A stretch of 8,553 nt of DNA from an uncultured Eubacteriales bacterium (lineage in GTDB: Bacteria; Bacillota_A; Clostridia; Lachnospirales; Cellulosilyticaceae): NCBI GenBank assembly GCA_900556665.1, contig USPX01000074.1, forward strand, positions 1 through 8,553, given 5' to 3'. The notes below the pieces were generated by a model, which was not told the DNA's origin, made no database searches, and was given only the letters and a program-made list of their open reading frames with translations. The translations under genes were made by a program, and so were the position numbers. Within the stretch, counting starts at the first letter, position 1; the number at the start of each line of letters is the position of its first letter. This document shows positions 1 to 8,553 of this stretch, piece by piece.

Positions 1-70
1 TTTTTACCTGAGATAACAGATAGAGTATGATGAGTTTATTGATTGTAAAATCTTCATGATTTAAATTCAC
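1..70 (-). CDS. DUF4364 family protein, N-terminal fragment (cut by window edge)
   Basis: The first 23 codons of a minus-strand gene that runs off the left edge. It begins with GTG at 70-68, six bases after a strong ribosome binding site (AAGGAGG, complement of 77-83); no in-frame ATG lies nearby. The peptide starts VNLNHEDFTINKLIILYL and continues LSQVK. This resembles the N-terminus of DUF4364 proteins, which are common in Clostridia and begin with a short charged stretch followed by a KLIILYxL helix, thought to be part of a winged-helix-like fold. The function of the family is not established. It lies 57 bases downstream of the radical SAM gene on the same strand and has its own promoter candidate in that gap. 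The family call rests on 23 residues, so it is tentative; the existence of a gene here is well supported by the ribosome binding site and the open frame. Confidence 0.65.
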   Translation of the reverse strand, partial: MNLNHEDFTINKLIILYLLSQVK

Positions 71-76
71 GGTGTG

Positions 77-83
77 CCTCCTT
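77..83 (-). promoter_or_regulatory. ribosome binding site fixing a GTG start
   Basis: AAGGAGG on the minus strand, six bases before GTG at 70-68. It is a near-perfect Shine-Dalgarno sequence and the reason for choosing the non-ATG start of the DUF4364 fragment. Confidence 0.8.
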
Positions 84-102
84 ACAACATTTATTATTAT
101 AT

Positions 103-131
103 ATTGTATCTTAAAAAAAGATTAAACTCAA
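103..131 (-). promoter_or_regulatory. sigma-A type promoter for the DUF4364 gene
   Basis: On the minus strand TTGAGT (complement of 126-131) is followed after exactly 17 bases by TACAAT (complement of 103-108), a 4/6 and 5/6 match to the consensus. The predicted transcript start falls about 13 bases before the AAGGAGG site. The -35 box overlaps the stop codon of the radical SAM gene at 130-128, so the downstream gene could be transcribed independently of it. Sequence-based prediction only. Confidence 0.5.
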
Positions 132-1051
132 TATGTGTTTAAAGATTTACCTTGATAGATGTCAGTTTCTTTTAAATAACGGTTTAAGTCGTTAAGTACT
201 TTTTTCTTATTCTTAGTCCATAATGGCGCAATAAGATGTGCTGCTGGACCATCCCCTGTAAGCCTGTGGATAACTAGTTCTGGCGGTAATATACAAAGTA
301 TGTCTCCAATTAACTGAATATATTCTTCCTCAGAAAGAATCGGAAACGGATTTTCTAAATAATATTTACCTAAAGGTGCATTATCTAGAACATGGAGCAT
401 ATGGAGCTTGATGCCTTGTAATGGGAGTTTGCTCACATACTTTGCAGAAGCAAGCATTTGCTCTCTTGTTTCATGAGGTAGACCTAAGATGAGATGGACA
501 ACAGTTTCGATATTATGAGCATGTAGTTTTTGGACTGCTTCTTCAAAACAGCTGAGTGGATAGGCGCGATTAATAAGCTTAGCTGTATCCTCATGGATTG
601 TTTGAAGACCTAATTCTACCCACAGATGTGTACGTTTATTAAGTTCAGCTAAGTATTCTATAATTTCATCATCTAAGCAATCTGGTCTGGTTGCAATAGC
701 GAGACCTACAACTCCTGGGAAACTTAGTGCTTCTTCGTATTTGGCTTTAAGGACTTCTACAGGAGCATAAGTATTAGAATAAGATTGGAAATAGGCAATG
801 TATTTTTTAGAATCTCCCCACTTAGCAGAAAGAAGAGAAACGGCACTTTCAAGTTGTCTTGTGATATCCCCTTTTAGCTTAGGTGTGAAATCGCCACTTC
901 CTTGTGCACTACAAAATATACAGCCTTTTGTGGCAACGCGTCCATCACGATTGGGACAAGTGAAACCACCATCTATAGAGAGCTTAATAACTTTTTCACC
1001 ATGTTTTTGACGCATGAAATTATTAAGGCTATAAAAACGTTGGGTTTGCAT
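128..1051 (-). CDS. TIGR01212 family radical SAM protein (YtqA/YhcC-like)
   Basis: A 307-residue radical SAM enzyme, close in length to E. coli YhcC and B. subtilis YtqA. The cluster-binding cysteines are Cys32, Cys44 and Cys47 (C-x11-C-x2-C) within GGFTCPNRDG and KGCIFC; this wide spacing is typical of the TIGR01212/Elp3-like group rather than the common CxxxCxxC. Further family landmarks are YFQSYSNTYAP, the IATRPDCL strand, WVELGLQT and HLILGLPHET. It is predicted to be cytoplasmic and to bind a [4Fe-4S] cluster and S-adenosylmethionine. From memory, B. subtilis YtqA has been renamed MnmL for a role in the mnm5U wobble-uridine modification of tRNA together with the methyltransferase YtqB/MnmM; no such methyltransferase is visible next to it here, so carrying that role over is inference. 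The start ATG (1051-1049) follows an AGAGAGGA ribosome binding site (complement of 1059-1066). The stop is TGA. Confidence 0.9.
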   Translation of the reverse strand: MQTQRFYSLNNFMRQKHGEKVIKLSIDGGFTCPNRDGRVATKGCIFCSAQGSGDFTPKLKGDITRQLESAVSLLSAKWGDSKKYIAYFQSYSNTYAPVEVLKAKYEEALSFPGVVGLAIATRPDCLDDEIIEYLAELNKRTHLWVELGLQTIHEDTAKLINRAYPLSCFEEAVQKLHAHNIETVVHLILGLPHETREQMLASAKYVSKLPLQGIKLHMLHVLDNAPLGKYYLENPFPILSEEEYIQLIGDILCILPPELVIHRLTGDGPAAHLIAPLWTKNKKKVLNDLNRYLKETDIYQGKSLNTY

Positions 1052-1101
1052 ATAAAAATCCTCTCTAAAATTAAAGTTCTTTATGTAATTTTAAAATAAT
1101 T

Positions 1102-1141
1102 ACTTAAGTAATAAAAGAACGATTTCTTTTATTACTTAAGT
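1102..1141 (-). terminator. perfect 18-bp hairpin, likely terminator of the 144-residue gene
   Basis: Arms 1102-1119 and 1124-1141 are perfectly complementary (18 bp) around a CGAT loop. On the minus strand it lies 18 bases after the stop codon of the 1159-1593 gene and 51 bases before the start of the radical SAM gene. The bases after it on that strand are ATTATTTTAA, a poor U-tract, so termination may be partial and the radical SAM gene may depend on read-through. Each arm also contains the self-complementary ACTTAAGT. Confidence 0.65.
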
Positions 1142-1158
1142 TTATTATGATATAGAAG

Positions 1159-1593
1159 TTAGTTAAGTGCAAGGAGCATTTCTTCTTTACGTTGTCTAAT
1201 TTGTTCGCATGTATTTATAATGTGAAGCCATTGGTCATCCGTTGTGGCAGTACGTGAAAAGGCGATAAAATCATCACGAAGCTTCTTTGTAAAAATCTTT
1301 TTGATATGCTCTACTTCGTAGTCGTTGGTAGCTTTACTTAATGCGGTCATAAATTCAGAAGCACGACTACCAGAAATGAATGGTAAGTATGGCTGTATAA
1401 AATCTAATTTTTGTTGTAAAGCGTTATATTGTAATTCAAAAGGATTACCTTTGACATTATCCATATACGCATAAAAAGCATCTAGATTTAAAAAAGTAAC
1501 ATTTTTAAGTGAGGAATAATCAAAGTGAGCAAGAAGGTCGCGAAAATCTAAAATGTGATTTCTAAGCTCTTGTTTGGTAAGCAAAGTTGCCAT
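1159..1593 (-). CDS. hypothetical protein, 144 residues
   Basis: I do not recognise this protein. The gene is well supported: the ATG at 1593-1591 follows AAGGGGGA (complement of 1601-1608) at 7 bases, and a hairpin follows the stop. The product is soluble, with no signal peptide, membrane segment, cysteine cluster or nucleotide-binding motif except a single Cys near the C-terminus in NTCEQIRQRKEEM. It is rich in aromatic residues and short helical stretches (LRNHILDFRDLLAHFDYSSL, FIQPYLPFISGS, HIKKIFTKKLRDDFIAFS), suggesting an all-alpha fold, possibly for protein contacts. It is divergent from phoP, with 148 bases between the start codons, so the promoters face away from each other. Whether it shares control with the phosphate regulon cannot be told from the sequence. 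Confidence 0.75.
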   Translation of the reverse strand: MATLLTKQELRNHILDFRDLLAHFDYSSLKNVTFLNLDAFYAYMDNVKGNPFELQYNALQQKLDFIQPYLPFISGSRASEFMTALSKATNDYEVEHIKKIFTKKLRDDFIAFSRTATTDDQWLHIINTCEQIRQRKEEMLLALN

Positions 1594-1637
1594 CTTAAAG
1601 TCCCCCTTTAAAGAAAAAATAACTATTTATATAGCTT

Positions 1638-1643
1638 ATTATA
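1638..1643 (-). promoter_or_regulatory. -10 box candidate for the 144-residue gene
   Basis: TATAAT on the minus strand (complement of 1638-1643), 44 bases upstream of the start codon at 1593. No good TTGACA-like box lies 16-18 bases further upstream, so the promoter may be weak or activator-dependent. Prediction only. Confidence 0.35.
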
Positions 1644-1679
1644 TCCAACAGCAAAATAAAAAGTGTATGTAAAATTTAC

Positions 1680-1708
1680 TTTAAACGTAAAAGAAGTTGT
1701 ACTATATT
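1680..1708 (+). promoter_or_regulatory. promoter candidate for phoP-phoR
   Basis: TTTAAA (1680-1685) and TATATT (1703-1708) are 17 bases apart, 33 bases upstream of the phoP ATG. Directly upstream, 1667-1679 reads ATGTAAAATTTAC, a small inverted repeat GTAAA-A-TTTAC that could be an operator half-site. I see no tandem PHO box here comparable to the one before pstS, so autoregulation by PhoP is not demonstrated. Confidence 0.4.
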
Positions 1709-1741
1709 AAAAGTAGACCTAAATCTAAAAGAGGTGAAATA

Positions 1742-2446
1742 ATGGAAAGAAAGCAAGTTATAGTGATTGATGATGAAGAACATATTTTAGAGCTTATTAG
1801 ATATAATCTAGAAGCAAATGGTTTTTTCGTGGAAACTTTTACAAGTGTAGAAAGCGCAAAACCTTATATTGAATCCAAAGGAGCAGATGTTATCTTATTA
1901 GATATCATGTTACCTGGGATGGATGGCATTAGTGCACTTCAGCAGTTTAGAAATAATGTAGCAACACAAAATATACCGATTCTTTTAGTCAGTGCAAAAA
2001 GTGAGGAAATTGATAAGATACTAGGACTTGAATTAGGGGCAGATGATTATATTACAAAGCCTTTTAGTGTAAGAGAGCTGGTAGCAAGAGTTAAGGCTAT
2101 TGTAAGACGTAATGAAAGAGGAGGGGTCAGACCTAAAGAAAATATACAGACATTAAGTTACAAGGGCTTAGAATTAGATGTTGAAAGTCATGTACTTACT
2201 TATAAGGGTGAAGTGATAGAACTTACCTTTAAGGAGTTTGAGATATTAAAGTTATTAATGAGTAATAGAGGCAAGGTGCTTACAAGAGAGACTATTTTAG
2301 ATAAAATATGGGGTTATGATTACTATGGTGAGACGCGTACAGTAGATGTACATATTCGTTATTTACGCTCTAAATTAGAAGAGCATCAACTTGGAGGATT
2401 TATTGAGACAGTACGTGGTGTAGGCTATAAATTTATAAAGGGGTAA
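1742..2446 (+). CDS. phoP: PhoP (PhoB) phosphate-regulon response regulator
   Basis: A 234-residue OmpR/PhoB-family DNA-binding response regulator. The receiver domain (about 4-120) has the acidic pair Asp10-Asp11, phosphoacceptor Asp54 in LLDIMLPGMDG, Ser84 in LLVSAK and Lys106 in YITKPFSVREL. The C-terminal winged-helix domain (about 140-232) shows LTFKEFEILKLL, RTVDVHIRYLRSKLE and the closing IETVRGVGYKF. The start used is the ATG at 1742, five bases after GAGGTG (1731-1736); an upstream in-frame TTG at 1697 would add 15 residues but has no ribosome binding site and overlaps the promoter. phoR follows after 3 bases, so the two form one operon. Once phosphorylated by PhoR it should activate phosphate-starvation genes such as the pst operon. 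The PhoP identity, rather than another OmpR-type regulator, rests on the partner kinase architecture and the nearby pst and nucleotidase genes. Confidence 0.9.
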   Translation: MERKQVIVIDDEEHILELIRYNLEANGFFVETFTSVESAKPYIESKGADVILLDIMLPGMDGISALQQFRNNVATQNIPILLVSAKSEEIDKILGLELGADDYITKPFSVRELVARVKAIVRRNERGGVRPKENIQTLSYKGLELDVESHVLTYKGEVIELTFKEFEILKLLMSNRGKVLTRETILDKIWGYDYYGETRTVDVHIRYLRSKLEEHQLGGFIETVRGVGYKFIKG

Positions 2447-2449
2447 CGT

Positions 2450-3862
2450 ATGAAAAGAAAGATAATGGCGCCTATAGTAATAGCATTTATTATTGTAGCT
2501 ACAATGATTTCAGCAGAGCTCCTATTATTATTTGCCGGTATAAAAAGTAGAGGGAATAATATAGCTGAAATTAATCTCATATGTGACCATACGTTTTATC
2601 GTATATTAATAGAGATTATAATAATAGCTATTCTTTTATATGTAATTATTTATCGTGTGATCAAACAGATAGAAGTACCAGTGAATCAACTTACAAAGGA
2701 TGCTAAAAACTTTAAGTTAGATGTACTTACTTATCCTATTAGAGATTATGAGATAGAGGAAGTACGAAACTTAGCATTAGCATTTGATTATATGGCCAGT
2801 GAATTAGGAAGCACCATTCGTAAGTTAAAGCATCAAAAGGAAAAGTTAATGACAATGCTAGAGGCATTAGAAGAGGGCATTGTAGTATTAAATAAAGAAG
2901 GATATATAGGCCAAGTTAATGAACTAGCCAAAGAAATGCTCCATTTAAAAGGAGACTTTAAAGACAAACCAAAGCTAGTAGATTGTGTGCAGCATGAGGA
3001 ATTAAAAAAGTTAGTCATAGAAAGCCTAAAGAAAGGTGGTTGTCATGCCGTTGAGCTTACTTTATATAAACAAATTGTGTTTGTAAGTGTGGTGCCTATA
3101 GGCAAGATAAGAGAAGCTTATGAATATCTACTTATTATAAGAGATGTGACACAGCTTAGAAAGTTAGAGGAAATGCGTTCTCAATTTGTAAGTAATGTTT
3201 CCCATGAGCTAAAAACACCTCTTACAAGTATTCAGGGCTTCGTAGAGACACTTCAAAGTGGAGCTGTAGAGAATCCTAAAGTGGCGTATAAATTCTTAAA
3301 TATTATTGATATTGAAACCAAAAGGCTGTATAGACTAATACAAGATATATTGATACTTTCTGAAATTGAAAATATGGAAATACCTCAGTATGGTAACTCA
3401 AATGTTATAGAAATTATTAATGAGGTACTAGCTTTAATGGATAGTGAAGCTAAGAAGAAATCCATTGAAATAAGTCTTGAGATAAGGTCTAAGTTAAATG
3501 TTAAAAATATTAGTGAAGACCATATAAAACAACTTGTTATGAATTTAATTTCTAATGCTATTAAATACACAGATCATGGGAAAGTACAAATCATAGTAGG
3601 AGAAGATTATATTAGCGTACAAGATACCGGGATTGGTATACCAGAAGAAAGTATTCCCCATATTTTTGAAAGATTTTATAGAGTAGATAAAAGTCGTTCT
3701 CGCCAAAGAGGGGGGACAGGTTTGGGGCTGTCCATTGTAAAGCATATTGCACAACTTTATAATATTAAGATTCAAATTGAAAGTAAAGTGCAAGAGGGAA
3801 GCAGATTTATAGTAATGTTACCTGAAGATAAGATAGAAAGAGAAAAAGACATAAGTACCTAG
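2450..3862 (+). CDS. phoR: PhoR sensor histidine kinase
   Basis: A 470-residue membrane histidine kinase. Order of parts: transmembrane helix about 6-29; a very short outside loop (about 30-50); second transmembrane helix about 51-68; HAMP-like linker about 69-122; PAS domain about 130-235 (LEALEEGIVVLNKEGYI); dimerisation/phosphoacceptor domain with His252 in FVSNVSHELKTPLTS; ATPase domain with N-box Asn369 (LISNAIKYT), DTGIGIP, the F-box IFERFYRVD and GGTGLGLSIV. The arrangement is that of Firmicute PhoR/ResE/WalK-type kinases but without a large extracytoplasmic sensor domain, so the signal probably comes through the membrane, the PAS domain or Pst/PhoU. The start ATG has an AAGGGG site (2438-2443) inside the end of phoP, indicating coupled translation. 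The stop codon lies in the loop of the terminator hairpin. Confidence 0.9.
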   Translation: MKRKIMAPIVIAFIIVATMISAELLLLFAGIKSRGNNIAEINLICDHTFYRILIEIIIIAILLYVIIYRVIKQIEVPVNQLTKDAKNFKLDVLTYPIRDYEIEEVRNLALAFDYMASELGSTIRKLKHQKEKLMTMLEALEEGIVVLNKEGYIGQVNELAKEMLHLKGDFKDKPKLVDCVQHEELKKLVIESLKKGGCHAVELTLYKQIVFVSVVPIGKIREAYEYLLIIRDVTQLRKLEEMRSQFVSNVSHELKTPLTSIQGFVETLQSGAVENPKVAYKFLNIIDIETKRLYRLIQDILILSEIENMEIPQYGNSNVIEIINEVLALMDSEAKKKSIEISLEIRSKLNVKNISEDHIKQLVMNLISNAIKYTDHGKVQIIVGEDYISVQDTGIGIPEESIPHIFERFYRVDKSRSRQRGGTGLGLSIVKHIAQLYNIKIQIESKVQEGSRFIVMLPEDKIEREKDIST

Positions 3863-3882
3863 CAATAGGACTTATGTCTTTT
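3844..3882. terminator. bidirectional terminator between phoR and the methyltransferase gene
   Basis: Arms 3844-3856 and 3870-3882 pair perfectly over 13 bp; a further CCT/AGG pairing can shorten the 13-base loop. The plus-strand arm ends in TTTT and on the minus strand the stem is followed by TTTTTCTCTTTC, so it can serve both converging genes. The phoR stop codon (3860-3862) sits inside the loop. The methyltransferase gene ends 8 bases from the stem. Confidence 0.8.
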
Positions 3883-3890
3883 AAAGTAGA

Positions 3891-5054
3891 TTAAATAGCT
3901 TTAAAGTTTTCACCATCTTTAGGTGGTCTTGGCCCAAAGTATTGATAGAAATCAACCTTTAAGTTACCGTTGAATAATTTACGTTTTTTATTAGCCTTTT
4001 TACCATAGTCACGTTCAAATGTGTCTACACTTGTAATAGCATATAAACTCCAAGTAGGATTTGTATCCATAAGTTTACGAAGGTCTCTATGGATTTGTTC
4101 GATACGAGAGATATCACTAATACGTTCACCATATGGTGGGTTAACAATTACAACCCCATAATCGCCGTGTGGTAAGCTTGTTTTATGAACAGGTTTTGCG
4201 AAGAATTGAATGTATTCGCCTACACCAGCAGCTTCAGCATTTTCACGAGCTTTACGAATGTTATTACGATCGATATCAGAAGCATAAATAATAGGGCTAC
4301 CTTTTTGATCAATAGCTTCACGGGCTTCTTCACGGAGTTCATCCCAAAGTGATTTAGGTACTTGTGGCCAGAATGAAGAAGCAAATTGACGGTTTAAGCC
4401 TGGTGCAATATTTTTAGCAATCATAGCGGCTTCAATAGCAAAAGTACCAGAACCACAACATGGATCATAAAGAATACGTCCTTTTTTCCAATAGCTGATT
4501 TGTAAAAGTGCAGCAGCCATAGTTTCTTTAAGTGGGGCTTCTACATTGTTCACACGATAACCACGTTTGTGAAGACCTTCACGACCAGTTGTATCAATAG
4601 TTAAAGTTGCTACGTCTTTTAAAATAGAAACTTGTACTGTATAAGATGGCCCTGTTTCTGGGAACCAATCAATGCCATAAGCTGAAGATAAACGCTTTAC
4701 AATGGCTTTTTTAGTGATTGCTTGACAGTCTGAGATACTAAATAATTTAGATTTAACTGATTTACCGTTAACAGTAAACTTCGCATCTTTAGTAATCCAT
4801 TTTTCCCAAGGAAGTGCAGCAACTTGATCGAATAATTCTACGAAAGTAGTTGCTTTGAATTCTCCCATTTTAATAAGTACACGGTCAGCGCTACGTAACC
4901 AAAGGTTAGAAAGAGCAATTGCTTCCACGTCACCAATATAAGTTACTTTACCATCACTAACACTCTCTATTTCGTAACCTAAATCTTCTACTTCACGTCT
5001 TACCATAGTTTCAAGACCGAAGGTAGAGGTTGCAATGAGTTCAAATGTTTTCAT
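3891..5054 (-). CDS. ypsC: THUMP-domain class I SAM-dependent RNA methyltransferase (YpsC/RlmL N-domain type)
   Basis: A 387-residue protein matching the length of B. subtilis YpsC and corresponding to the N-terminal half of E. coli RlmL, which makes m2G2445 in 23S rRNA. The N-terminal ferredoxin-like/THUMP region (about 1-160) begins FELIATSTFGLETMVRREVEDLGYE and includes LWLRSADRVLI. The catalytic domain (about 165-380) has SAM-binding motif I starting at Asp197 (DPCCGSGTFAIEAAMIA), an acidic ASDID loop and the catalytic motif NPPYGER at Asn305-Arg311, typical of exocyclic-amine (N2-guanine) methylation. Predicted cytoplasmic; the exact rRNA target in this organism is inferred. The ATG at 5054-5052 follows AAGAGGAG (complement of 5061-5068) at 6 bases. 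It is a single-gene unit converging on phoR and divergent from the nucleotidase gene, with no visible link to phosphate metabolism. Confidence 0.88.
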   Translation of the reverse strand: MKTFELIATSTFGLETMVRREVEDLGYEIESVSDGKVTYIGDVEAIALSNLWLRSADRVLIKMGEFKATTFVELFDQVAALPWEKWITKDAKFTVNGKSVKSKLFSISDCQAITKKAIVKRLSSAYGIDWFPETGPSYTVQVSILKDVATLTIDTTGREGLHKRGYRVNNVEAPLKETMAAALLQISYWKKGRILYDPCCGSGTFAIEAAMIAKNIAPGLNRQFASSFWPQVPKSLWDELREEAREAIDQKGSPIIYASDIDRNNIRKARENAEAAGVGEYIQFFAKPVHKTSLPHGDYGVVIVNPPYGERISDISRIEQIHRDLRKLMDTNPTWSLYAITSVDTFERDYGKKANKKRKLFNGNLKVDFYQYFGPRPPKDGENFKAI

Positions 5055-5084
5055 ATAATTCTCCTCTTAAGTAATAATACTCTT

Positions 5085-5113
5085 ATTTTACATCATTCAA
5101 AAAGCAGTGTATA
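5085..5113 (-). promoter_or_regulatory. promoter candidate for the RNA methyltransferase gene
   Basis: On the minus strand TATACA (complement of 5108-5113) is 17 bases before TAAAAT (complement of 5085-5090), placing the transcript start just upstream of the AAGAGGAG site. Matches are 4/6 and 5/6. Prediction only. Confidence 0.4.
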
Positions 5114-5121
5114 GACTAGGG

Positions 5122-5161
5122 AAAAAGTAAAAATGTATTACAAAAAAGTAAAAATATATCA
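5122..5161. repeat. two direct repeats of an A-tract element, 21 bp apart
   Basis: 5122-5140 and 5143-5161 share AAAAAGTAAAAAT followed by (G/A)TAT(T/C)A, 17 of 19 identical. The 21-bp period equals two helical turns, so the A-tracts face the same side of the helix. They sit about 60-100 bases upstream of the nucleotidase -10 box and may bend DNA or act as an UP-like or regulator-binding element. Confidence 0.6.
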
Positions 5162-5176
5162 AAATGTTATAAAATA

Positions 5177-5225
5177 GGTTAAATGGTACATAATGGTTTA
5201 ATAATTATTAAAAAGTGTGTATAAT
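5177..5225 (+). promoter_or_regulatory. nucleotidase promoter with degenerate PHO-box-like repeats
   Basis: A perfect TATAAT lies at 5220-5225. Seventeen bases upstream there is only TTTAAT (5197-5202), a poor -35, as expected for an activator-dependent promoter. The segment 5177-5206 reads as a loose tandem GGTTAAAT / GGTACATAAT / GGTTTAATAAT; the last unit matches the GTTTAAT boxes before pstS. Spacing is irregular (8 and 10 bases), so PhoP binding is only a possibility. The predicted transcript start is near 5232. Confidence 0.45.
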
Positions 5226-5239
5226 TATTTGAGGTGGTA

Positions 5240-5271
5240 AAAATCTATGTAAACTAGTTTGCATAGATTTT
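5240..5271 (+). promoter_or_regulatory. 32-base palindrome in the nucleotidase leader
   Basis: The segment is an inverted repeat over its whole length, with a single non-complementary pair (T5250 and G5261) that would be a G-U wobble in RNA. The transcript could form a 14-bp stem with a CUAG loop within about 10 bases of the predicted 5' end. Its core, ATGTAAACTAGTTTGCAT (5247-5264), matches the leader palindrome of pstS at 15 of 18 positions. It could be an operator or an RNA stem that stabilises or controls the message. Confidence 0.7.
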
Positions 5272-5303
5272 ATAAAGTTATGCTAGAAGGTAGGAGAATA
5301 GAA

Positions 5304-7154
5304 ATGGCAAAATTTTTAAATGGTGGTAGAGTATTAAAAGTATGTATGACAGTTGCACTCGCAACAAGTTTAATCATTCCAGGGGGAATCATTTTCGCAA
5401 ATGATGGAAGTAAAACAATCCAAATTATTGCAACATCAGACGTACACAATCAATTCTATGGGTATGATTATGCAACAAACTCTGAACTTACAAAAGGTGG
5501 TGTAACAAGAGTTGCAACTGTTGTTAATAATCTTAGAAAAGAAAATCCAAATACAATTGTTGTAGATAATGGGGATTTAATTCAAGGGAATTCATCACAA
5601 ATTTTCATTAATGATAAAGAAAATCCACAACCTATGATTGTTGCTTTAAATGAATTAGATTATGAAACAATGACTTTAGGAAATCATGAGTTCAACTATG
5701 GAATTGAACGTTTAGAAGAAATTTTAGCTGATTTAGAAGATACAACTGTTTTATGTGGTAATGTATATAAACCAAATGGTGAAAGATTAGGGAAACCTTA
5801 TAAGATTGTTGAAAGAGATGGTATTAAAGTAGCAATCATTGGTTCAGTAACACCACACATTGTTAAATGGGATGCAACTAACTTAGAAGGTTGTAAAGTA
5901 ACATCACCTTTAGAAGAAACTCAAAAAGCAATTAAAGAAATTAAAGAAGGTAATCTTGCAGATATCATGATTGCTACAGTACATATGGGTAAAGATGGAG
6001 AATATGGTGATGATAGTGCAGCTGAAATTGCTGAAAAATGCCCAGAGCTTGCAGCAGTAATTGCTGGTCATGAGCATGCTGTACGTGAAGATGAAAGAGT
6101 AAAAAATATTCCTATTACAGAACCAGGAACAAATGGTCAATATGTTTCTGTAGTAGATATCACAATCGATAACAATAAAAAAGTAGAAAAAGTAGAATCT
6201 CGCCTTATCAGTACAGAACAAGTAGAAAAAGATGCTGAGCTTGAAAAAATCCTTGCACCTTACCATGAAAAAGCTGTAAAAGATGCTGAAACAGTAATCG
6301 GTGAATTAAAAGGTGGTGCACTTATCAGAGAAGATGATATGAAAGGTGTAACACAAGGACAAATCGAAGATAATGCCCTTGTTGACTTAATCTTAGAAGT
6401 ACAAACTTACTATGCTGAAAAAAGTGGTAAAATCCCAGCTAAAGCACATCATGTAAGTGGGGCAGCATTATTTAGCCCATCAGCTAACGTACAACCAGGT
6501 AAAATCAAACGTGCTGATACAGCAAATATGTATAAATACGACAATACATTAAAAACACTTAAAATCAATGGTAAACAACTTAAAAAGTACATGGAATGGT
6601 CAGCAAGTTATTATAATACATTTAAACCAGGTGATTTAAATGTATCATTCAATGAAAATATCAGAATGTACAACTATGACATGTTCAGTGGTGTAAAATA
6701 TGAAATTGATATTACAAAGGAACCTGGAAACCGTATCAAGAATTTAAAATATGCTAAAGGTGGTGCAGTAAAAGATACTGATGAAATTTACTTAACAGTA
6801 AATAACTACCGTTGTGATAGTATCCTTTTAGCAGATTTATTTAAAGGTGAAGAAAATGTAGAAGTTGTATATGATAACAGTACAGAAACAGTTTCTACTA
6901 TTAGAGAACTTATCGGTGAATATATTCAAACAGTGAAAAAAGGTGTAATTAAACCAGAAGTAGATAAAAACTGGAAACTTACAGGTTACAAAATTGATAA
7001 AAAACAAGAAAAAGTAGCAAGAGAACTTGTAAATTCAGGAAAACTTGAATTACCAGTATCTCCAGACGGTAGAACTCCAAACATCAGAAGCTTAACATGG
7101 GCAGATGTAGAAGCAGTTCTTAAAGCTGAAGAGCAAGCAAAACCTAAAAAATAA
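5304..7154 (+). CDS. secreted 2',3'-cyclic-nucleotide phosphodiesterase / nucleotidase (CpdB/YfkN family)
   Basis: A 616-residue exported metallophosphoesterase that should release phosphate from nucleotides outside the cell. A signal peptide covers about 1-32 (Lys11, hydrophobic 13-31, cleavage likely after IIFA). The two-metal domain (about 37-310) has Asp46-x-His48 (TSDVHNQ), Asp91 (NGDLIQG), Asn127-His128 (LGNHEFNYG), His227 (TVHMGKDG), and His256 and His258 (AGHEHAV). The C-terminal 5'-nucleotidase substrate domain (about 330-560) carries GQIEDNALVDLI, VSGAALFS, YKYDNTL and LKKYMEWSASYYN, features that favour the CpdB (2',3'-cyclic phosphodiesterase/3'-nucleotidase) branch over classical 5'-nucleotidases. 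No LPXTG, SLH or C-terminal membrane anchor is seen, so it is probably released or loosely wall-bound. ATG 5304 is chosen because AGGAG (5292-5296) lies 7 bases before it; upstream in-frame TTG 5259 and ATG 5280 lack such a site. I found no ATA among about 50 isoleucine codons, suggesting high expression. Confidence 0.88.
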   Translation: MAKFLNGGRVLKVCMTVALATSLIIPGGIIFANDGSKTIQIIATSDVHNQFYGYDYATNSELTKGGVTRVATVVNNLRKENPNTIVVDNGDLIQGNSSQIFINDKENPQPMIVALNELDYETMTLGNHEFNYGIERLEEILADLEDTTVLCGNVYKPNGERLGKPYKIVERDGIKVAIIGSVTPHIVKWDATNLEGCKVTSPLEETQKAIKEIKEGNLADIMIATVHMGKDGEYGDDSAAEIAEKCPELAAVIAGHEHAVREDERVKNIPITEPGTNGQYVSVVDITIDNNKKVEKVESRLISTEQVEKDAELEKILAPYHEKAVKDAETVIGELKGGALIREDDMKGVTQGQIEDNALVDLILEVQTYYAEKSGKIPAKAHHVSGAALFSPSANVQPGKIKRADTANMYKYDNTLKTLKINGKQLKKYMEWSASYYNTFKPGDLNVSFNENIRMYNYDMFSGVKYEIDITKEPGNRIKNLKYAKGGAVKDTDEIYLTVNNYRCDSILLADLFKGEENVEVVYDNSTETVSTIRELIGEYIQTVKKGVIKPEVDKNWKLTGYKIDKKQEKVARELVNSGKLELPVSPDGRTPNIRSLTWADVEAVLKAEEQAKPKK

Positions 7155-7184
7155 TAAAAGCCATTTGCTATATTTGATATAAAG

Positions 7185-7231
7185 AAGAGGTATTATGAAG
7201 CAAACTTTAATGTTTCATAATACCTCTTTTT
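7185..7231 (+). terminator. Rho-independent terminator after the nucleotidase gene
   Basis: Arms 7185-7199 and 7214-7228 pair over 15 bp and the second arm runs into TTTTT (7227-7231). It begins 30 bases after the stop codon and separates the nucleotidase unit from the pst operon. Confidence 0.9.
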
Positions 7232-7250
7232 ATTATGTTAGAATTTTGAA

Positions 7251-7289
7251 GTTTAAAAATGTGTTAAGAATGTTTAATAGGAGTTTAAT
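7251..7289 (+). promoter_or_regulatory. PHO box: four TTAA repeats upstream of pstS
   Basis: TTAA occurs at 7253, 7264, 7274 and 7285, i.e. spaced 11, 10 and 11 bases, each in the context GTTTAA or GTTAA (7251, 7263, 7272, 7283). Tandem TT(A/T)A-type repeats with an 11-bp period are the known arrangement for PhoP/PhoB dimers binding one face of DNA in Firmicutes. Their position upstream of pstS in a window that also encodes PhoP/PhoR makes them the probable PhoP activation site. Confidence 0.7.
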
Positions 7290-7305
7290 TGAAGCAAAAC
7301 AAAAA

Positions 7306-7330
7306 TTAAATACAGCCATATTACTATAAA
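7306..7330 (+). promoter_or_regulatory. pstS: -10 box candidates for the pst operon
   Basis: Two candidates: TTAAAT (7306-7311), 16 bases after the last PHO repeat TTTAAT, which would put that repeat in the -35 position as usual for PhoP/PhoB-activated promoters; and TATAAA (7325-7330), a better hexamer with no recognisable -35. A choice between them cannot be made from the sequence. Confidence 0.4.
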
Positions 7331-7356
7331 TGTGTAAGTAAAAAGTTTAAATAGGC

Positions 7357-7378
7357 AGATGTAAAATAGCTTACATCT
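7357..7378 (+). promoter_or_regulatory. leader palindrome directly before the pstS ribosome binding site
   Basis: Arms AGATGTAA (7357-7364) and TTACATCT (7371-7378) are perfectly complementary around AATAGC, and the second arm abuts AGGAGGAG (7379-7386). The core ATGTAAAATAGCTTACAT (7359-7376) is 15/18 identical to the palindrome core in the nucleotidase leader. As RNA it would form an 8-bp stem next to the ribosome binding site; as DNA it could be an operator. Confidence 0.65.
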
Positions 7379-7392
7379 AGGAGGAGATAAGT

Positions 7393-8232
7393 ATGAAAAG
7401 AAAATTTATGACAGTATGTACAGCATTAGCATTAGGCGCATATATGCTTACAGGGTGTGGGAGTAGTACAACAGGTCAAGTTAAGTCAGGGACTAAAATT
7501 TCAATAGTAGGCTCTACAACAGTAGCGCAGCCAATGGAAAAGTTAGTAGAGGTTTATAAAGAATTAGGTCATACAGATGACATAGAGGTGCAAGGTAATG
7601 GTTCATCAGCAGGAATTAAAGCAACAATTGAGGGAACAGCTGATATTGGTATGGTTTCAAGAGAATTAAGCGAGGAAGAAAAGGGTACAGGGATTATAGA
7701 AACAGTTATTGCGTATGATGGCATAGCAGTTATTGTAAATCCTAATAATAGTGTAGAAAATCTTACTAATGAACAGGTAAAAGGAATTTTTGAAGGTACA
7801 ATTACGAATTGGCGAGAAGTAGGTGGTAGTGATCAAGAAATCATTGTGGTAACAAGGGAAGCAGGCTCAGGAACTAGAAGTGCATTTGAAGAAATTATAG
7901 GACTTTTAGATGAGAGTAAAGCATCGACTATTGTAGATACAGCACTAGTGTCAGAAGGAACAGGGGCAGTAATGGCTACAGTAGCAAGCAAAGAAGCAGC
8001 CATTGGATTTATCTCTTTAGGCTATATGGATCAAACAGTAAAAGGGCTTGATATTAATGGTGTAAAACCAACAACAGATACAGTAAAGGCAGGTGAATAT
8101 AAGATTTCAAGGCCACTTTTAGTTGTAACTCAGCCAACAATTAAACCAGAAGCTCAGGACGTTATTGAGTTTATTACAAGTGAGAAAGGACAAGAAATTA
8201 TGGCAGAAAAATATATTTCAATAGCACAATAA
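7393..8232 (+). CDS. pstS: PstS phosphate ABC transporter substrate-binding lipoprotein
   Basis: A 279-residue phosphate-binding lipoprotein of the high-affinity PstSCAB importer. The signal peptide ends in the lipobox LTGC, with Cys22 as the lipidated residue, so the protein is anchored to the outer face of the membrane. Phosphate-contact segments typical of the family are visible: GSTTVAQPM (Ser41-Thr43), GNGSSAGIKA (69-77), ADIGMVSREL (83-92) and TREAGSGTRSAFE (154-166, with Arg155, Ser159, Gly160, Thr161, Arg162). Length is normal. The ATG at 7393 follows AGGAGGAG (7379-7386). It is the first gene of the pst operon: pstC starts 33 bases after its stop with no terminator between. A PHO box upstream suggests induction by PhoP under phosphate limitation. 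Confidence 0.95.
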   Translation: MKRKFMTVCTALALGAYMLTGCGSSTTGQVKSGTKISIVGSTTVAQPMEKLVEVYKELGHTDDIEVQGNGSSAGIKATIEGTADIGMVSRELSEEEKGTGIIETVIAYDGIAVIVNPNNSVENLTNEQVKGIFEGTITNWREVGGSDQEIIVVTREAGSGTRSAFEEIIGLLDESKASTIVDTALVSEGTGAVMATVASKEAAIGFISLGYMDQTVKGLDINGVKPTTDTVKAGEYKISRPLLVVTQPTIKPEAQDVIEFITSEKGQEIMAEKYISIAQ

Positions 8233-8265
8233 AAGAAAATTATAGTCTAGATAGAGGAGAAATAT

Positions 8266-8553
8266 ATGGATAAATTAATGAAAAAGGTATTTGGGTTATG
8301 CACAGTAATAATGATTTTAGCTGTAGGAGTTATGGCGGCTTATATTGTTATAGACGGCTTACCATTCTTTAATCAAATAAGCCTGAAGGAGTTTATATTG
8401 GGAAGGAAATGGAATCCATCTGGAAAAGTCTTTGGAATCTATCCCATGTTAGTAACAAGTATATTAGTAACATTAGGTGCAACGGCTATTGGGGTTACCA
8501 TAGGAATAAGTACAGCTATTGTACTTGTTGAAATACTGCCTCAAAAAATCGCA
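8266..8553 (+). CDS. pstC: PstC phosphate ABC transporter permease, N-terminal part (cut by window edge)
   Basis: The first 96 codons of an integral membrane permease; the frame is open to the right edge. The ATG at 8266 follows AGAGGAG (8253-8259) at 6 bases; an in-frame ATG four codons later is less well placed. The N-terminus has a transmembrane helix (about 9-30), a short outside segment with FILGRKWNPSGKVFGIYPM, a pattern seen in PstC proteins (the F-x-G-x-x-W-x-P segment and the FGxxP turn), and a second helix (about 60-85, VTSILVTLGATAIGVTIGISTAIVLVE) that begins the ABC-permease fold. Together with PstA and the ATPase PstB, expected beyond the edge, it would move phosphate delivered by PstS into the cell. 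Confidence 0.92.
   Translation, partial: MDKLMKKVFGLCTVIMILAVGVMAAYIVIDGLPFFNQISLKEFILGRKWNPSGKVFGIYPMLVTSILVTLGATAIGVTIGISTAIVLVEILPQKIA

Follow-up and report, generated by a model that had tools for sequence, protein, structure and literature searches.

Two similar palindromes lie in the 8,553-nucleotide window analyzed here (contig USPX01000074.1, positions 1 to 8,553, from an uncultured Eubacteriales bacterium of the Cellulosilyticaceae), one in the leader of an exported 5'-nucleotidase gene and the other in the leader of pstS, which encodes a phosphate-binding lipoprotein. The question is whether they are two copies of one regulatory element. The initial annotation took them as such and proposed a second layer of control, by a DNA operator or an RNA stem, common to the phosphate regulon. 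Our analysis suggests instead, with a probability of about 0.5, that the palindromes are different look-alikes, and that the one at pstS is an RNA stem in the messenger RNA (mRNA) leader that ends ahead of the Shine-Dalgarno sequence and is kept by its structure.

As initially described, the second palindrome reaches the pstS ribosome-binding site, since its 3' arm ends at position 7378 and AGGAGG starts at 7379. This placement recurs in relatives (loci and genomes are denoted by L and G numbers): six of the seven close pstS leaders, namely, the window, the first pstS copy of L076, and L077 to L080, contain a stem whose 3' arm ends 0 to 5 bases ahead of the Shine-Dalgarno sequence. The arms differ, with AGATGTAA/TTACATCT in the window, AGCTATA/TATAGCT in the first copy of L076, ATTATCC/GGATAAT in L077, GATAATT/AATTATC in L078 and L080, and GATAAC/GTTATC with an inner ATC/GAT in L079, and the 40-base segments anchored at the Shine-Dalgarno sequence in the window, L076, L077, and L079 are 28 to 50% identical to one another. 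That a stem recurs in an unchanged position although its letters differ argues that structure matters, not a sequence readable by a protein, and the preference of the initial annotation for RNA over DNA thus gains support at pstS. Comparison with 3,000 shuffles of each leader gave p values of 0.022 (window), 0.0007 (L076, first copy), 0.012 (L077), 0.030 (L078), 0.0003 (L079), and 0.053 (L080), against 0.31 for the stemless L081; in a smaller run, 1 of 300 shuffles matched the window stem. Among the 8 pairs of the three stems that can be aligned, a single pair changes in a compensatory way, from U-A to C-G, and a G-U pair is also present.

At fixed thresholds, which were set only after the pstS stems had been seen, a stem was called for 9 of the 149 genes with an upstream gap in the stretches covered, comprising 5 of the 7 close pstS genes and 4 of the 142 others (Fisher p = 4e-6), the gene set having been produced by a rough caller that put the phoR start at 2849. 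The choice of thresholds and the rough caller weigh against the reading of the pstS palindrome as a stem kept by structure, as do the following observations. The seven leaders are kin, and those of L078 and L080 are 90% identical; L081 has no stem, and L080 falls below the threshold, with 6 of 100 shuffles equaling it. Formal covariation over three rows was not significant, being equaled by 170 of 500 shuffles. Within the 149-gene set, the stem was absent from the second pstS of L076 and from the outgroup leaders L082, L083, L084, L086, L087, and L088, and in the outgroup leader L085, which lies outside this set, the stem ends 13 bases ahead of the Shine-Dalgarno sequence. The total energy of the window leader (7330-7410) is ordinary (39 of 200 shuffles were as stable), and the minimum-energy fold varies with the stretch chosen: the stem is formed in the folds of 7330-7410, of 7350-7392, and of the 40 bases that precede the Shine-Dalgarno sequence, and a competing structure without it in that of 7318-7404. 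A search with the Rfam covariance models gave no matches up to an E value of 1, and neither of the two other nucleotidase leaders contains a stem of the pstS kind beside the Shine-Dalgarno sequence. Finally, this reading leaves the likeness of the two window copies to chance or another cause. On balance, the pstS RNA stem appears moderately supported and specific to this clade.

The pstS stem, which would be transcribed in the leader, probably sets mRNA stability or translation. Its action would most likely be passive, by protecting an abundant mRNA driven by PhoP against 5' decay of its leader in the manner of the 5' stems of Bacillus, by holding the Shine-Dalgarno sequence free of other pairings, or both. 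As such, it is an ordinary kind of element. A wider proposal, which we put forward only as a tentative possibility, is that in Cellulosilyticum and its closest relatives a hairpin at the ribosome site, defined by structure only and repeatedly replaced in sequence, is required by the pstS mRNA; the phosphate regulon would then have a rapidly evolving post-transcriptional layer, and in the lineage of the window the nucleotidase gene beside pstS would carry a stem with the same core. If the stem does set PstS dosage, the pstS leader, a testable RNA element, would offer a simple example of a structure that persists as its sequence turns over.

The likeness of the two palindromes was described correctly, as the sequences and coordinates at 5247-5264 and 7359-7376 are exact and agree at 15 of 18 positions. 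The first lies within a 32-base inverted repeat at 5240-5271, whose sole imperfect pair is T5250/G5261, and in the second not only the A/C mismatch noted earlier (A7365/C7370) but also A7366/G7369 is unpaired. The pattern derived from the two copies in the initial annotation occurs without mismatch at these two window places only. With up to 3 mismatches there were 16 matches in the window, close to the shuffle mean of 13.1, so that such loose matches are background.

The proposed control layer common to the phosphate regulon did not find support in other genomes. In 24 genomes of the family, the motif gave 12 strand hits, compared with 24 for a reversed control, and the expected enrichment in relatives was thus not seen. 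The 12 hits correspond to 9 places, of which 7 overlap open reading frames of at least 70 codons, 1 is intergenic, and 1, the only clear gene leader, precedes the nucleotidase gene of G797. This genome is the nearest in the family by nucleotidase (90% protein identity), and two of its three motif places are inside open reading frames. Conservation at orthologous pstS genes, which had also been anticipated, was not observed either, as the motif was missing, at up to 2 mismatches, from all 14 other pstS leaders searched (13 genomes, 240 bases per leader). At the same threshold, one of the two other nucleotidase leaders contained it (G797), and the other (G804, 63% protein identity) did not. These leader counts leave aside the genomes with a rearranged PstS (L089 to L092), a 41%-identical second match in G710 (L065), and the remoter nucleotidases (35 to 39%) of five family genomes (L069 to L073). 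The latter five loci, searched over their full length with up to 2 mismatches allowed, contained no site without mismatch and one 1-mismatch site, in L069; similarly, the distant loci L001 to L044, which include the nucleotidase loci L005 to L026 and L030 to L033, contained no exact motif and a single 1-mismatch site, in L021. The absence from 14 of 14 pstS leaders, together with the lack of enrichment, does not support a common phosphate-regulon operator, which we rejected on the enrichment, placement, and pstS-leader scans. The case cautions against reading a pair of matching palindromes in a single window as one regulon.

A candidate third copy ahead of phoP (TGTAAA-A-TTTACT, 1668) was discounted, since the conserved block around it stays beside the minus-strand gene for a 144-amino-acid protein (1159-1593), not beside phoP. 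This block (1636-1683), upstream of that gene, is centered on GTGTATGTAAANTTTACTT, which all 8 close loci, the window included, carry with no more than one mismatch, and also contains a word resembling TTA(T/G)TATATCCA that is weaker in L088; it adjoins the 144-amino-acid gene even where phoP is more distant.

At the nucleotidase gene, the palindrome of the window has a local fold of -13.1 kcal/mol, which none of 1,000 shuffles equaled in stability, as compared with -3.9 kcal/mol for the counterpart stem in G797, with 116 of 1,000 shuffles as stable. The two leaders are mostly identical over their alignment; within the palindrome they have the same left arm and differ only in the loop and the right arm, where, in G797, the T/G pair of the core becomes T/A and the outer arm is broken. 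Conservation between these leaders thus covers the 7-base core and not the 32-base palindrome as a predicted stem, with the qualification that two sequences cannot separate constraint from recent ancestry. With the core retained in only one relative of the two, where the long stem is lost, this palindrome may act as either RNA or DNA. The palindrome, which lies close to where its leader is predicted to begin and 20 bases from the Shine-Dalgarno sequence, would have a separate role and is best taken as a 5'-proximal stem in its own right or as an operator such as a CcpA crevar site.

Three alternatives were considered. The resemblance of the two palindromes may be partly due to chance, and in the rather unlikely case that it is entirely so, AT-rich leaders would harbor a real pstS stem and an unrelated nucleotidase palindrome with a 7-base arm in common by coincidence. 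The value of P ~4e-4 for agreement at 15 of 18 positions holds only under the condition that both are taken as dyad-centered palindromes of their composition; when 100 pairs of shuffled leaders were compared at any offset and orientation, 1 pair agreed as well. The comparison was also made post hoc, among 60 inverted-repeat pairs in the window that could have been compared, and at the pstS genes of relatives the likeness is not retained. The retention of the nucleotidase core in G797 speaks against chance, but says little because most of the leader is kept. Alternatively, both palindromes could be a common DNA operator, for example a CcpA crevar site (TGTAAA-Yx-TTTACA) that blocks PhoP-driven transcription in the presence of a preferred sugar, and CcpA reportedly represses the phoPR promoter of Bacillus subtilis. 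We regard this as unlikely, although each window copy is one base from TGTAAA-N4-TTTACA, the nucleotidase copy of G797 is exact, and in that genome the core pairs better while the outer palindrome decays. The window contains 6 near-crevar sites (spacer of 0 to 10, at most 1 mismatch), two of them overlapping, compared with a mean of 1.62 and a maximum of 5 in 50 shuffles; for the individual leaders the excess is weak, as 45 and 33 of 500 shuffles match the count. Spacers of 0 to 40 and long flanking palindromes have been described for crevar in Clostridium acetobutylicum (PMC5263246). On the other hand, each window copy departs from the fixed core, the motif is missing from the 14 other pstS leaders and is not enriched at the window spacing in the 24 genomes, and two of the three G797 places are within open reading frames. 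For a classical 16-base cre, judged by eye against the consensus, the spacing is unsuited, and this candidate was rejected. A terminator or attenuator was likewise rejected, since the window scan revealed no terminator-like site at either palindrome.

The third alternative involves PhoP itself. TTHACA is the unit of Bacillus PhoP boxes, and TTTACA/TGTAAA, which resembles it, could be inverted PhoP sites, in line with the form of the PHO boxes in this family (TTAACA-N5-TTAACA). This is very improbable, as the family boxes repeat directly, with a period of 11 bases, and are farther upstream in the pstS leaders of relatives, where the inverted motif is not kept. The initial annotation had set the palindromes apart from PHO boxes. 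The exact box TTAACATNNATTTAACA has 11 sites across 10 of the 24 family genomes, including the pstS leaders of nine, as compared with 6 hits for the reversed control, of which 5 are in G700. The window pstS leader contains no exact PHO box and has instead an array of TTAA words. We infer that PhoP drives both the nucleotidase gene and pstS; promoters were placed from consensus alone, with 16 promoter-like matches in the window and a shuffle mean of 13.4. Tandem pstS genes are present in G687 (L076:11844-13937), where the Shine-Dalgarno stem is in the first copy only and an exact PHO box in the second only.

The features of the window are listed in the table below. The gene order is radical SAM protein, 144-amino-acid protein (without a Pfam match), phoP, phoR, RlmL-type methyltransferase, exported 5'-nucleotidase, pstS, and a last gene that we take, from its position, to be pstC. 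The best protein match with a named source was from an uncultured Cellulosilyticum (75%). Nucleotidase proteins with 75 to 100% identity (P0002 to P0008) are encoded on metagenome contigs.

Features of the window that are relevant to the two palindromes
Feature	Position	Strand	Basis
phoP, response regulator	1742..2446	+	PF00072, PF00486
phoR, sensor kinase	2450..3862	+	PF00512, PF02518
Predicted -10 of the nucleotidase promoter, TATAAT	5220..5225	+	Consensus only
32-base palindrome of the nucleotidase leader; 16-base arms, one T/G pair; predicted RNA stem of 14 pairs	5240..5271	+	Inverted-repeat scan, folding
Core of the nucleotidase leader, ATGTAAACTAGTTTGCAT; G797 counterpart, ATGTAAACTAATTTACAT	5247..5264	+	Motif scan
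Nucleotidase Shine-Dalgarno sequence, AGGAG, 20 bases 3' of the palindrome	5292..5296	+	Read from sequence
Exported metallophosphatase/5'-nucleotidase	5304..7154	+	PF00149, PF02872; synteny
TTAA words at 7253, 7264, 7274, and 7285, period of 10 to 11; putative degenerate PHO-like box of pstS	7253..7288	+	
Predicted pstS leader stem, AGATGTAA-AATAGC-TTACATCT; 8 pairs, six-base middle; 3' arm adjoins the Shine-Dalgarno sequence	7357..7378	+	Folding
Core of the pstS leader, ATGTAAAATAGCTTACAT	7359..7376	+	Motif scan
pstS Shine-Dalgarno sequence, AGGAGGAG	7379..7386	+	Read from sequence
pstS, phosphate-binding lipoprotein	7393..8232	+	PF12849

In L076 to L081, pstS directly follows rlmL with no nucleotidase gene between them, and the genomes of these loci gave no nucleotidase match at an E value of 1e-60, which makes the intervening nucleotidase gene a feature of the lineage of the window (window 5055-7392). 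In G797, the nucleotidase gene is beside rlmL, and no pstS match was obtained at an E value of 1e-20. Viral contigs contained no related loci, a contig scan with PstS returned two distant loci, and all matches of a plasmid search with the nucleotidase were below 60% identity. Lipoprotein-like frames of 290 to 312 codons adjoin pstC in L090:5918-6788 (G804), L089 (G833), L091 (G755), and L092 (G762), with the C-terminal half of PstS preceding the N-terminal half; judged by this order, they are circularly permuted PstS proteins. A literature search on such proteins yielded only a study of a lake virome. A perfect, AT-rich 18-base inverted repeat at 1102-1141 of the window, between two minus-strand genes, is possibly a terminator.

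No pstS leader stem was found among the titles and opening lines of abstracts searched, and a literature search on Cellulosilyticum with phosphate or CcpA revealed no work on its phosphate control among the matches listed. The pstS stem nevertheless has counterparts in known systems. The aprE leader is said to act as a 5' stem-loop stabilizer. More generally, downstream mRNA in B. subtilis can be stabilized by a hairpin situated at the 5' end or close to it, according to PMC3997798. Like such stem-loop and ribosome-site stabilizers, as far as they are described there, the pstS stem belongs to a low-GC Gram-positive bacterium, is not far from the 5' end, and neighbors a strong ribosome-binding site; it differs in directly adjoining the Shine-Dalgarno sequence. 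With the crevar sites of CcpA, as outlined in PMC5263246, the palindromes share the core hexamers and the inverted layout, exact in G797, whereas the window copies are one base off, unconserved at pstS, and unenriched at the window spacing. In Clostridium cellulolyticum, selective RNA processing and stabilization stems are described as setting unequal subunit dosage within operons (PMC4423207); in contrast to these, the pstS stem lies in a 5' leader.
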